Shown here one piece after another: positions 44,604-47,872 of a stretch of 64,000 nucleotides of DNA (positions within the stretch are counted from its first letter, which is position 1; each line of letters opens with the position of its first letter). The position numbers and the translations under genes are program-made. The stretch spans positions 682,001 through 746,000 of the forward strand of contig NZ_JACOFT010000002.1 in NCBI RefSeq assembly GCF_014699135.1, read 5' to 3'. This DNA is from Cognatundibacterium aquatile. Its GTDB lineage: Bacteria; Pseudomonadota; Gammaproteobacteria; Burkholderiales; Burkholderiaceae_D. The notes beneath the pieces are model-generated. The model was not told the origin of the DNA. It was given only the letters and a program-made list of their open reading frames with translations, and did not search any database.

Positions 44604-44622
44604 TGGTGCCCGAGGCCGGAAT
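44604..44622 (-). tRNA. tRNA 3' end fragment, probable prophage attachment site
   Basis: Read on the minus strand, the 19 bases give ATT-CCGGC-CTCGGGC-A-CCA. That is the end of a T-loop, the 3' strand of a T-stem, the 3' strand of a 7-bp acceptor stem, the discriminator base and CCA. The remaining tRNA body is absent. An acceptor of GCCCGAG would suit a tRNA-Phe-like gene, but identity is uncertain. Phages that integrate in tRNA 3' ends leave such fragments at one end and the intact tRNA at the other. Confidence 0.75.
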
Positions 44623-44992
44623 ACGATCATATTAATAATCAATCACTTATATAGATACTGCGTGTTTTATGGGAAACCCTTTCTATCTCACCTAAAAAGA
44701 AGACCAACACATGTGATTATGACAACACAAGCGGATAAAAGTAATCGGTTCGATTCCTAAATTCCCATAAGGCGACAGCAAGACAGTATTTTAATTACAT
44801 GCTTAATTTGGGAATATCCGTGCCGTTCAGATACAAGCGAAACGGCATAGAAAACTGCTTATAATAACTACGGTCATTTGCATTTCTTACAATTTATTGT
44901 GTAGCAATCAGTGTTAGATTACTATCTTAGACTACCATACTTAATTTAACAGTTCTGAGACGAGTGTCGAAAATAAAATAGAGATAAATTTG
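44623..44992. other. Gene-free left end of the prophage
   Basis: About 370 AT-rich bases between the attachment site and the first cargo gene. I see no gene. A 7-bp inverted repeat (TGCCGTT / AACGGCA) lies at about 44821-44847, possibly an integration accessory or regulatory site. The promoter of the first cargo gene should lie near 44900-44980. Confidence 0.5.
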
Positions 44993-45844
44993 ATGACAAA
45001 ATCTAATCAATCAAAAACGACAGAATCTCCGGCGCCAGGTAGTTTGTTGACCTGTGGGATCATTGCCCCAATTTCAGAGATAGATAATTGCTCAGCACAA
45101 CATTGGGCCGAAGTGAAACAGATCTTTATTGAAGCAGTTGATTCAATTCAAGATCCAAAATTTAGTGAGGCTAAATTAGTTAGCGATGACGATCCAGTTA
45201 CTGTCATTCACAAATCGATAGTACAAAATTTATACAATTCAGACATTGTTATTTGCGATATGAGTGGTAAAAACCCAAATGTCATGTTTGAACTTGGTAT
45301 GCGGTTGGCATTTAATAAACCAGCAGTCTTAGTTATTGATGATAAAACCGATTACTCATTTGATACTGGAATCATTTCACACATCACCTATCCACGAGAT
45401 CTGCACTATCAGTCTATTTTGAAATTCAAAAGCGATCTTGCAAATACAATTGCAAGTACATACAAAGCAACCGTAAACGGAACTGCGAGATCATTTCTGT
45501 CAAACTTTGAGGAAATATCTGCGAGCAAATTATCTAAAAAAGATGGATCGCTTGATGACGTCATTATTGATAGACTCGATCAGTTTCAACGTGAATTAGT
45601 GATGCTTAAACATTCACAACAAAATTCAATGTTATTGAACCGCATGAACGAGAGAAAGCATGGCAGCGTTACGGGTCGAGTAGTGTCCCTTTCATCTATT
45701 AGGAATATCGCTCAGGAAATTGCAAACAATGAGTTTTCACCAAAAGAGGATCGAGCCGCTTTTATATCACTATTGTCCGAAAGAGCAGGTCTAAACAAAA
45801 ATGATCCAATTCTAAATGACATCATAAATAACCTAGATATTTAA
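44993..45844 (+). CDS. Nucleoside deoxyribosyltransferase/TIR-like cargo protein
   Basis: A 283-residue soluble protein. The N-terminal half (about 18-155) has an alpha/beta pattern with CGIIAPIS, then SDIVICDMSGKNPNV (83-97) and MFELGMRLAFNKPAVLVID. The NPNVxxELG pattern, with E100, is shared by nucleoside 2-deoxyribosyltransferase-like and some TIR-like proteins that cleave N-glycosidic bonds in nucleotides or NAD. The C-terminal half is helical and unrecognised and may be a sensor or oligomerisation part. ATG at 44993. Its place next to the attachment site suggests lysogen cargo, possibly defensive; that is inference. Confidence 0.6.
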   Translation: MTKSNQSKTTESPAPGSLLTCGIIAPISEIDNCSAQHWAEVKQIFIEAVDSIQDPKFSEAKLVSDDDPVTVIHKSIVQNLYNSDIVICDMSGKNPNVMFELGMRLAFNKPAVLVIDDKTDYSFDTGIISHITYPRDLHYQSILKFKSDLANTIASTYKATVNGTARSFLSNFEEISASKLSKKDGSLDDVIIDRLDQFQRELVMLKHSQQNSMLLNRMNERKHGSVTGRVVSLSSIRNIAQEIANNEFSPKEDRAAFISLLSERAGLNKNDPILNDIINNLDI

Positions 45845-46048: not shown

Positions 46049-46252
46049 TTGCCAGCAATGGAGTCGGCTAAGGTCTTGCTTTGGAATGAAATGCTTTCAC
46101 AGAATTTACGTAAAGCAGATATGGCGCGAAGACTGAACGTTCACATGCCGCAAATAGATCGATTATTCGACATTCATCACTCAACAAAATTGGAGTTTGT
46201 TGAGCAAGCGGCAAAGGCGCTCGGAAAAAAACTCTCACTTTCTTTCGCATAA
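46049..46252 (+). pseudogene. HicB-like antitoxin C-terminal HTH remnant
   Basis: The 67-residue frame (TTG at 46049, ATG at 46058) encodes KVLLWNEMLSQNLRKADMARRL and VHMPQIDRLFDIHHSTKLEF, closely resembling the C-terminal helix-turn-helix of HicB-type antitoxins. The usual roughly 70-residue N-terminal HicB domain is missing; an in-frame TGA lies just upstream at 46037. No hicA is adjacent. It is either a decayed antitoxin or a free-standing small DNA-binding protein. Confidence 0.6.
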
Positions 46253-46253
46253 A

Positions 46254-46282
46254 AATAAAGCCCGGTATATCCGGGCTTTATT
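46254..46282. terminator. Bidirectional terminator
   Basis: AATAAAGCCCGG / CCGGGCTTTATT, a 12-bp stem with a 5-nt loop, lies between the convergent HicB-like remnant and the RelE-like gene. Its layout is almost identical to the hairpin at 47887. Confidence 0.88.
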
Positions 46283-46295
46283 GTTTATTCACTCA

Positions 46296-46619
46296 CTAAG
46301 GGCGATCATCTATCTCATCATGTTCACCACACACCCGGAAGAATATGCAGCTATCTTCATAAGTAAAGCTTGCTTTATACGTGTCGCTTGACGTGATGTG
46401 AATAGTATAGACTGGGACTTGCTTTGTTTTTTCAAAAACAGAAGGAACTGTTTTGCTCTTCAAATTATGAAAATGCAGCTTAGCAGGCGCGCTATCAAGA
46501 TCTATCAAAACCAACTCACCAATTATTCGGCGAGCCTCTTTCGCAATGTCTGGCTTAAGTCTAGAAAATGTTCTCTGAAATGTAGGGTTCCCAAAGTCAA
46601 TTCGCTTAACTACACGCAT
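46296..46619 (-). CDS. RelE/ParE-superfamily toxin-like protein
   Basis: A 107-residue basic protein with the RelE/ParE layout: two N-terminal helices (FQRTFSRLKPDIAKEARRII), then strands with KLHFHNLKSK, VYTIHITSSDTYKASFTY and a FFRVCGEHDEID ending. That last pattern is the R..G.HDE-type end seen in mRNA-interferase or gyrase-toxin relatives. Its ATG overlaps the upstream stop by one base (TAATG), so translation is coupled. The upstream protein would be the natural antitoxin candidate. Confidence 0.65.
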   Translation of the reverse strand: MRVVKRIDFGNPTFQRTFSRLKPDIAKEARRIIGELVLIDLDSAPAKLHFHNLKSKTVPSVFEKTKQVPVYTIHITSSDTYKASFTYEDSCIFFRVCGEHDEIDDRP

Positions 46620-47182
46620 TAGCCAGGCATTCCCATAATTTTATCCAACATAGCTTCAGCATCTTTTTTCGACGATGCACTATATAAATGCTGTACTTGG
46701 TATAGGTTTGCATCATGCTCAGTGATTTTCCACTGCGCATGGTTAGCCATTGCATAAAGTTCAGACATAACACCAGAGACCTGCTCCAGAGTAGCTTTTA
46801 ACTCTAATGCTCGCTGAGTATCAGAAAAATTTACTAACATTTTTTCAACATGCTTTTTGATCATTTTTGATGACTGCTTGATAGATTCAAGCTTATCCCA
46901 AATACGACCATTTTCATCAATGCACTCATCAATCGGCATTCTATCTATACCGAAAGCGATACCCTCAAGCTCAAAACAAACTGAAGCACTTTCTTTGGCA
47001 ATACGTGAAAAGTGATTATTTAAGCGACTGAAAAAATGATTAAGCATCCAATCTGCCAATTTTTTGATTGGGAAAACTCCAATCAAAGAAAAATTGATAT
47101 TCTTGCGAGGAATATGCCCCTCAACAGCATGGATTGAGGCAGCGGCAGAATCAATGGTTGCTAACATAGAATGATGCAACAT
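46619..47182 (-). CDS. Unknown helical protein coupled to the RelE-like gene, candidate antitoxin
   Basis: A 187-residue soluble protein that I do not recognise. It is rich in predicted helices (for example WDKLESIKQSSKMIKKHVEK and QRALELKATLEQVSGVMSEL), with a hydrophobic segment around 30-45. No obvious DNA-binding domain is seen, although it is larger than most antitoxins. The ATG at 47182 has AGGA six bases upstream. It is first in a two-gene operon with the RelE-like toxin and is preceded by a palindrome overlapping the promoter. Confidence 0.6.
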   Translation of the reverse strand: MLHHSMLATIDSAAASIHAVEGHIPRKNINFSLIGVFPIKKLADWMLNHFFSRLNNHFSRIAKESASVCFELEGIAFGIDRMPIDECIDENGRIWDKLESIKQSSKMIKKHVEKMLVNFSDTQRALELKATLEQVSGVMSELYAMANHAQWKITEHDANLYQVQHLYSASSKKDAEAMLDKIMGMPG

Positions 47183-47234
47183 AGTAATTCCTATCTAGTG
47201 TTTAGCTCAAACAGTAGGCTGATGAGTAAAACGC

Positions 47235-47262
47235 GTTAAGCATTTGCTTAACATTGATTATA
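47235..47262 (-). promoter_or_regulatory. Palindromic operator and -10 box of the toxin-antitoxin-like operon
   Basis: GTTAAGCATTTGCTTAAC (47235-47252) is a perfect 18-bp palindrome. On the minus strand a TATAAT -10 hexamer (47257-47262) lies just before it, so the palindrome covers the transcription start, about 53 bp before the 187-residue gene. This layout fits autorepression as in toxin-antitoxin operons. Confidence 0.7.
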
Positions 47263-47479
47263 GCCGCGAACGTCAATATATATAATTAATTTATAGTGCC
47301 CAATATGGCTATTACACGTCTTTTTTGGTTATTCTTCCAACATTAATTATCAATATAGCAATCAAAAGTCGATTCCCGTCGCTTAACCGCAAATTAGCCA
47401 CACGTATGATGTGGTTAATTTGCTTTTTTATTTTCCGCGTGGCAATATTTTTGTTATTAAAATTTTATATGAGGCTTTT

Positions 47480-47872
47480 ATGCGGAAACAAAATGGCGGA
47501 TCTGAAGTTATATTACTTTTAGCAATTGGAGCAGCTGTTATTGTCTGGACAATATCAAAGGCCATCAACCTCGATATGCTCCTAACTCTAAAAGAAATAA
47601 TTGCAATATCAGCAGGTACGGCGGTCTATGTCTTGATGTTGAAATACTTAGACATCTCATTTAAAAGATCTTTTTTATTCTTTGTTGCGTTTGTCATTCT
47701 CTTGATAATACCTGCCTTAGACTACTACGCGAACCCCTATGCTGCAGATCCAGCTTGGTCGAAATATATCACTAGTGATACGGCATGGTATGGGTCAATA
47801 TACTGGCAACTTGGAATTATAGGCGCACTGGTAGCTGCTGGAATTTGGCAGAATTTTTCTGAAAACAGATAA
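47480..47872 (+). CDS. Small four-helix membrane protein (prophage cargo)
   Basis: A 130-residue protein with four hydrophobic segments: VILLLAIGAAVIVWTI, IIAISAGTAVYVLML, FFVAFVILLIIPAL and LGIIGALVAAGIW. The ATG at 47480 has GAGG five bases upstream; the frame is open to 47411. It is in the cargo zone, on the opposite strand to the lysis genes. It could be a superinfection-exclusion or lysogen-conversion protein, but no family is recognised. Confidence 0.65.
   Translation: MRKQNGGSEVILLLAIGAAVIVWTISKAINLDMLLTLKEIIAISAGTAVYVLMLKYLDISFKRSFLFFVAFVILLIIPALDYYANPYAADPAWSKYITSDTAWYGSIYWQLGIIGALVAAGIWQNFSENR

Follow-up and report, generated by a model that had tools for sequence, protein, structure and literature searches.

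A probable type II toxin-antitoxin cassette of a lambda-like prophage, with a long, predicted helix-rich partner encoded before a divergent RelE/ParE-superfamily protein

Toxins of the BECR/RelE-ParE superfamily are distributed over 13 Pfam families, of which ParE_toxin contains both gyrase inhibitors and RelE, and YafO is listed as an mRNA-degrading toxin (Table 1, PMC11980606). The main text of that source, in which the word 'coiled' does not occur, also contains the report that HigB of a TAC module is triggered by the major tail protein of phage lambda (section 10, PMC11980606). Novel antitoxins of RelE that carry RHH or HTH domains have been described (PMC2701414), and these are not the family presented here. 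A DNA-binding domain is not universal in antitoxins, because PaaA2 is devoid of one, and the paaA2-parE2 pair of a cryptic prophage has been reported to be addictive (PMC8630535). In the Panacea (PanA) antitoxins, a scaffold is combined with exchangeable neutralising elements, and a sensing function has been proposed for them (PMC10440598).

The locus analysed here, within a window of 64,000 nucleotides (the whole stretch of DNA from Cognatundibacterium aquatile that was analysed), shares features with several of these systems and departs from them in others. Like relBE-type modules (PMC11980606), it has a predicted antitoxin gene that comes first and overlaps the toxin gene, with an acidic antitoxin and a basic toxin (about 95 residues in relBE-type modules); unlike them, the partner family is 161-194 residues long, its window member has no RHH, HTH or Phd/YefM match, and the Pfam matches of the toxin family are weak. 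The prophage-borne RelE/ParE toxin and the predicted antitoxin with no recognisable DNA-binding domain recall the paaR-paaA-parE system (PMC8630535), in which, however, the regulator PaaR2 is a third gene that has no counterpart in the window operon. As for PanA (PMC10440598), an antitoxin scaffold appears to persist through changes of toxin and of neutralising part, whereas no Panacea match was found in 15 partners and only one swap, between two families of the RelE superfamily, was observed. This swapped variant (L087) resembles yafNO in having a YafO-family toxin and the antitoxin gene first, but its antitoxin belongs to the family of the 187-residue partner and not to the YafN type; unlike TAC modules, the window operon contains no gene for a SecB-like chaperone. 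YafN is itself Phd/YefM-like, and PaaA2 is much smaller than the 187-residue partner. Since PaaA2 and Panacea provide precedents, the kind of antitoxin is known and the family is new as far as these searches go; in the open-licence literature searched, no published account of the pair was recognised.

Organisation of the window pair

Both open frames of the pair lie on the minus strand. The predicted antitoxin, a partner protein of 187 residues and pI 6.5, is the first gene (46619-47182) and is followed by the predicted toxin, a RelE/ParE-superfamily protein of 107 residues and pI 8.6 (46296-46619). The stop and start codons overlap by one base in these two frames, which bears out the TAATG coupling, with the 187-residue gene first, that the preliminary description had claimed. 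The gene before the pair is divergent and a terminator-like hairpin lies after the toxin gene; neither the window ORFs nor the site scan gave a third co-directional gene adjoining the pair. The opposite charges of the two proteins recur in their relatives, with acidic partners (pI 4.4-6.5) and basic toxins (pI 8.6-10.5) at 16 of 16 loci, among which the window pair carries the smallest charges (-2.4 for the partner and +1.4 for the toxin).

The signals upstream of the pair are less well defined. The TATAAT box that had been named as its promoter is present (47262-47257, minus strand), but it is accompanied by a poor -35 element, with two of six positions agreeing with TTGACA at a spacing of 17 nt and three of six at 16 or 18 nt (counted by hand), and the site is absent from the output of the promoter scan; we retain it as a possible promoter. 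The inverted repeat at 47235-47252, a possible operator earlier described as a perfect 18-bp palindrome, in fact has a 2-nt centre that is not complementary, flanked by perfect arms of 8 bp. When the 150 bp upstream were shuffled with dinucleotides preserved, 8 of 500 shuffles gave a repeat as long. Among 15 relatives, 13 have no upstream inverted repeat with arms of at least 7 bp (for L013, 138 bp only were available), the two others carrying 8-bp arms at a different distance (L011) or 7-bp arms (L019). The proposed operator is thus marginal against chance and unconserved, and for these reasons the repeat was kept out of the evidence. With no DNA-binding family matched and no conserved operator, the autoregulation that type II modules usually have is not apparent here.

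Downstream of the toxin gene, the terminator-like hairpin (46254-46282) was reported by the scan on the plus strand only, with 12 pairs and a loop of 5; read by eye on the minus strand, it forms a 9-bp stem followed by ATTTTTAT. The scanned region holds six terminator-like sites, compared with 1.3 expected. This hairpin and the prophage setting described below did not figure in the preliminary description.

The toxin and partner families

Searched alone, the window toxin has no family match in any of Pfam, PHROGs, NCBIfam and PADLOC. Its single sequence found only its own genome among 369 genomes of the class and nothing in a scan of genome contigs, while in 399 genomes of the order it found its own genome and three relatives, to which profile searches added more; a protein of Derxia gummosa is 46-47% identical to it. 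The relationship to known toxins emerges from these relatives. The PDB entry of RelE3 (3bpq) is matched by a four-member toxin profile at E=0.0028 and by the 15-member profile at E=1e-4, and is the sole toxin of the RelE/ParE superfamily among the PDB matches of the family profile at E<=1. In addition, hhalign joins the toxin family to ten ordinary RelE relatives at 96.9%, as against 0.1% for the reversed control and at most 1.6% for 30 column shuffles. Matches to the 13 Pfam RelE/ParE families are weak and none is clear, the best being ParE_toxin (5 of 15 members, best E=0.0022) and ParE-like (2 of 15, best E=0.0086), both listed to E 0.05. A PHROG named RelE-like toxin is matched by 4 of 15 members (best 1.5e-4) and the PADLOC model CARF_RelE, weakly, by 3 of 15 (best 8.8e-4). 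On the strength of the profile comparisons, the 107-residue protein is a divergent member of the RelE/ParE superfamily; the likeness claimed earlier is invisible for the window protein alone in four libraries and clear for the family profile with RelE3 and hhalign. Across 26 aligned toxins, H100 is found in all 26, D104 in 25, R95 in 24 and K82 in 23; H100 alone is invariant, active-site-like positions vary in this wider set, and any correspondence of the four residues to the catalytic residues of RelE is tentative.

The partner is the less familiar half. The claim that it is an unrecognised protein holds, as Pfam, PHROGs, NCBIfam and PADLOC contain nothing above noise for the window member, and so does the claim that it has no familiar DNA-binding domain, which is absent from the window partner in all four libraries and from the family in Pfam and PHROGs, where scattered matches of single members include no DNA-binding family. 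Panacea is likewise absent from the Pfam matches of the 15 partners at E up to 0.05. The partner's own sequence was not found in 399 genomes of the order and it therefore seemed unique at first. When an HMM was built from the partners of 11 other loci, however, it picked the window ORF in its own locus (E=7.6e-4, 14.5 bits), a weak link, at 12-21% identity between the window partner and family members; this match and that of Derxia (8.5e-4) are the weakest obtained. The partners are 161-194 residues long (the frame of L082 opens earlier and gives 224 residues from its first start), roughly double the 82-115 residues of the antitoxin genes that accompany ordinary RelE relatives, and those of the intact toxin-found loci mostly carry a W-x-I/V-x-E-H-D-A-D-like stretch near the end. 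From residue propensities and coiled-coil matches, the partner is predicted to be helix-rich; its matches to prefoldin, TBCA and designed coiled coils were read as composition and rejected as homology. The partner family looks to be unnamed and large, and to travel with phages as part of a small cassette.

A related arrangement, here called type B, was found at five loci in four genomes belonging to other families of the phylum. Its toxin is RelE-like, 88-90 residues long and more distant from the window family, and its partner is again long, helix-rich and encoded upstream with an overlap (174-181 residues from the chosen starts, 176-196 from the first). Profile comparison aligns the type-B toxins with those of the window family (type A) at 97.2% (reversed 8.4%); for the two partner families, the C-terminal parts align at 90.4% (reversed 0.2%, 30 shuffles at most 1.1%); a plain HMM search between the partner families gave no match at E<10 among 403 ORFs of 16 type-B and ordinary loci, and the end motifs of the type-B pairs differ from those of the window family. 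One type-B partner (L041) is basic, with a pI of 8.7, and is the only basic one of the five (L031, L034, L046, L039 and L041). Two of the pairs, L034 and L046, stand in tandem about 1 kb apart on the same contig (G895:C417).

The type-B profile found nothing in viral contigs, and tblastn with a type-B toxin matched four phage records. The two of these that were inspected, L054 and L055, were rejected as members, their upstream genes being different and of 131 and 107 residues. In the former, in Nitratiruptor phage NrS-1 (L054:1941-2598, plus strand), a RelE-like 'plasmid stabilization system protein' follows the helical-looking 131-residue frame, possibly a shorter relative of the same arrangement. 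A wider search from the toxin side returned 26 matches in 24 of 349 genomes: the window's own locus, which alone was counted as a family member, the five type-B loci, 16 matches behind an upstream gene of 82-115 residues and four in other contexts (L037, L038, L040 and L043). From their look, we take the short upstream genes to be ordinary antitoxins of the Phd/YefM-like kind.

Pairing, toxin exchange and phage context

The association of the two genes was approached from either side. From the toxin side, the partner gene is found upstream at all 16 intact loci (the window, L008, L010-L022 and L051), where it overlaps the toxin gene or is separated from it by no more than 9 nt, and it is also present at two further toxin-found loci, L070 and L071. 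From the partner side, a scan of viral contigs with the partner alone returned 17 loci, of which five were known and 12 new; the next gene is RelE-like in ten of the new loci (L077, its near-duplicate L078, L080-L086 and L088, with gaps of -20 to +10 nt) and YafO-like in L087, and the contig edge cuts the remaining one (L075); no solitary partner was seen among the others. Altogether, the partner and a RelE-like gene occur together at 28 loci, comprising the window, 17 IMG/VR viral contigs and 10 bacterial genome contigs, a count that includes the near-identical L077 and L078 and also L071, with its altered toxin 3' end. In the 27 loci other than the window, the partner gene encodes 161-194 residues and overlaps the toxin gene or lies within 10 nt of it.

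The two halves were further cross-tested with profiles built on separate loci. A toxin HMM built on the 16 first loci and run on 990 ORFs of 12 later ones (leaving aside the duplicate L078 and the cut L075) had the partner-adjacent ORF as its sole match at E<1 in 11 of 12 loci and missed L087; without L070 and L071, which came from a toxin scan, 9 of 10 loci remain as an independent count. Conversely, a partner HMM built on 11 later loci and run on 736 ORFs of 11 toxin-found loci, excluding L018-L022, the seeds of the partner scan, had the upstream ORF as its sole match at E<1 in every one of the 11. Among 240 genomes sampled from the order, five were matched by the partner profile, the same five that carry family toxins, four of which had contributed to the profiles and one of which (G554, with L051) had not; the samples of the toxin and partner scans appear identical (221 near-complete genomes and 117 genera each). 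Two further toxin matches in this sample have upstream genes of 82 and 91 residues. The presence of the pair in other genomes, on which the preliminary description had staked its proposal, was thus found from the toxin and the partner side alike, with no refutation. For one toxin relative, in a Rubrivivax MAG (L009), no partner was detected at E<=1e-3; the toxin frame of this locus is split, possibly through an assembly error.

Toxin and partner distances correlate in a mirror-tree comparison (r=0.71; 0 of 5000 permutations as high), a correlation to which shared descent contributes and which it could produce. pN is below pS in all 14 comparisons, drawn from seven locus pairs; dN/dS could be computed in four of them (0.03, 0.07, 0.13 and 0.16), dS being saturated in the other ten. 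With tblastn, the window toxin and partner found nothing in phages (50,697 records) or plasmids (72,556 records); the same holds for the relatives' toxins, that of L016 in plasmids, that of L014 in phages and that of L021 in both, and for the L087 and L021 partners in phages. At two loci the pair has a further peculiarity. In L071 (4956-6125, plus strand), the toxin frame is without its C-terminal end and continues into lipoprotein-like sequence, as an altered copy or a fusion; in a Desulfobacterales MAG, a frame directly after the pair (L016:6314-6841, plus strand) has what we take to be the look of an ImmA/IrrE peptidase, and may be a third component.

A variant of this pairing is found in the prophage locus L087. 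Its partner is 52% identical to that of L020, the identity being 74% in the first 50 residues and about 40% thereafter, and the DNA of the two loci is 72.5% identical over 240 bp (73 upstream and 167 within the gene). The C-terminus of the L087 partner is longer and without the usual LRW...E-H-D-A-D and DIDxFLDDL elements, and the gene that overlaps its end encodes a YafO_toxin (PF13957, 39.4 bits against a cut-off of 25). That the scaffold is shared while its end and the toxin differ suggests that the partner is an antitoxin with an exchangeable, toxin-specific neutralising end, from one example; a further scan gave no second YafO-swapped unit, and L087 is a single case.

The pair is part of a prophage of about 41 kb, because a 19-bp left att repeat (44604-44622) recurs at a tRNA-Leu gene beside an integrase-like frame. 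The second copy of the repeat lies beyond the window, at window-frame position 85767 (L060:1767), at the 3' end of the tRNA-Leu(taa) gene (L060:1767-1859), and the frame beside it (84544-85566) is integrase-like by eye. The prophage corresponds to IMG/VR record IMGVR_UViG_2920390971_000001, of 40,574 bases, in which the pair sits among other accessory genes, with the left att repeat on one side and the spanin and lysozyme genes (recognised from Pfam and PHROG matches) on the other. Just inside the left att repeat, a 284-residue TIR/nucleoside deoxyribosyltransferase-like protein (44990-45844, plus strand) matches a PADLOC TIR effector at E=1.9e-7, PF05014 below cut-off and phrog_3634 at 1.6e-18, and is possibly a second defence gene. 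Convergent with the pair is a 67-residue ORF (46049-46252, plus strand), possibly a hicB remnant, that matches a HicB-like PHROG in part only (E=3.2e-12, profile positions 84-148 of 342). Between the pair and the spanin gene, on the strand opposite to the pair, lies the gene for a hydrophobic, probably membrane protein of 153 residues (47411-47872, plus strand) with no convincing family match in Pfam, PHROGs, NCBIfam or PADLOC.

In other phages the pair occupies varied positions. That of L022 separates the tail genes K and I; a 3.6-kb query spanning this junction is matched by 80 phage records, none of which covers 80% of it, and in the two annotated records inspected (vB_Pae_CF53a and phiAH14a) other genes fill the K-I junction, a comparison made for the L022 site. 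By eye, the neighbours of L018, L019 and L087 include tail-tube or tape-measure genes, and the L080 pair, like that of the window, lies after lysis genes. The L021 pair has a promoter-like site, TTGACA-16-GATAAT (11 of 12 positions; the region has three sites of this kind where 0.7 would be expected), and its toxin gene is immediately followed by a terminator-like site; the hexamers and spacing of L018 and L022 are the same by eye. We read the pair as a prophage moron, placed here in the att-to-lysis zone and elsewhere inside tail operons.

Proposed mechanism and alternatives

The pair is, in our reading, quite probably a type II toxin-antitoxin cassette that forms part of the cargo of a lambda-like prophage (a moron), with the partner gene first and translationally coupled to the toxin gene, and with a partner that would mask the toxin through its C-terminus. 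The pairing seen from either side, the opposite charges and the toxin swap with its changed C-terminus all favour the earlier proposal of a new antitoxin family with a RelE/ParE-like toxin. The partner would be an acidic, helix-rich antitoxin with no recognisable DNA-binding domain, whose N-terminal part ('AARSLDLLRAID') would form the common scaffold and whose C-terminal part, with an 'LRWxIxEHDAD'-like helix and the last ten or so residues ('DIDxFLxxL'), would bind the basic RelE-like toxin and so mask it. Loss of the partner, through prophage loss, proteolysis or an infection cue, would free the toxin to cleave translated mRNA, and the ensuing arrest of growth would favour retention of the prophage or block a superinfecting phage. 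What the comparisons show is that pairing and gene order are conserved, that the toxins are homologous to one another and so are the partners, that the charges are opposite, that the toxin was swapped once and where the cassette is located; from this we infer the helical structure of the partner, the neutralisation, the binding by its C-terminus, the cleavage of mRNA and the biological role.

Two alternatives concern what the cassette is for, and both are compatible with the toxin-antitoxin explanation. That it is purely an addiction module, which merely stabilises the prophage or element carrying it, is plausible, if short of probable: the setting is that of prophages or integrases in the window (att repeat and tRNA), in the 17 IMG/VR loci and, by eye, in L010 and L015, and the paaA2-parE2 pair of a cryptic prophage is reported to be addictive (PMC8630535), whereas five loci (L011, L012, L014, L017 and L051) occupy, by eye, contexts without clear phage genes. 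It is also possible, though slightly more doubtful, that the partner is, as the preliminary description had suggested, a phage-responsive sensor, with a C-terminus that holds the toxin until a component of an incoming phage releases it and an N-terminal scaffold that senses, the outcome being abortive infection. The doubled size of the partner relative to the antitoxin genes beside ordinary RelE relatives would suit such a role, as would the retention of the N-terminal scaffold while the C-terminus and toxin change, a pattern that in Panacea antitoxins has been linked to proposed sensing (PMC10440598), the proximity of the window pair to the TIR-like gene in the same att-proximal zone and the reported triggering of HigB in a TAC module by the lambda major tail protein (PMC11980606). 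Size and modularity, however, also fit a plain antitoxin, PADLOC is empty for the window pair and CARF_RelE is matched only weakly, in 3 of 15 toxins.

Two others concern what the proteins do. An inhibition of DNA gyrase in the manner of ParE, in place of mRNA cleavage, appears unlikely: although ParE_toxin, the family matched by 5 of 15 members (best 0.0022), holds gyrase inhibitors as well as RelE (PMC11980606), RelE3 is the only superfamily toxin among the PDB matches at E<=1, a PHROG named RelE-like toxin is matched by 4 of 15 members and the swapped-in toxin, YafO, is listed as mRNA-degrading (PMC11980606). A reading in which the partner is a co-expressed chaperone or cofactor and the pair a phage accessory enzyme, with no toxin system at all, would account for a coiled-coil-like partner of a size outside the usual antitoxin range, but is very improbable, since the second gene belongs to the RelE superfamily, the L087 swap puts a known toxin family (YafO) in its place, the window operon has no third co-directional gene and L009, the sole relative with no detectable partner, has a split toxin frame (again with the proviso of a possible assembly error).

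Returning to the toxin-antitoxin cassette, a broader proposal, speculative and in our estimation rather improbable, is that the partners form a new class of antitoxin, in which phages would use a long helical scaffold, sensory in function and fitted with a replaceable neutralising tail, to arm RNases of the RelE superfamily (RelE-like or YafO), and this scaffold would read a phage component to release the toxin, the type-A and type-B partner families being branches of this class. If the pair works as proposed, it adds to the known antitoxins a family absent from the searched libraries, and annotation would miss this partner family because those libraries do not hold it. Because it is inserted at varied points of the tail and lysis regions, the cassette is a candidate for a defence or addiction function encoded by prophages, and the same scaffold, occurring with a RelE-like or a YafO toxin, would offer a natural experiment on which part of the antitoxin neutralises and which, if any, senses.
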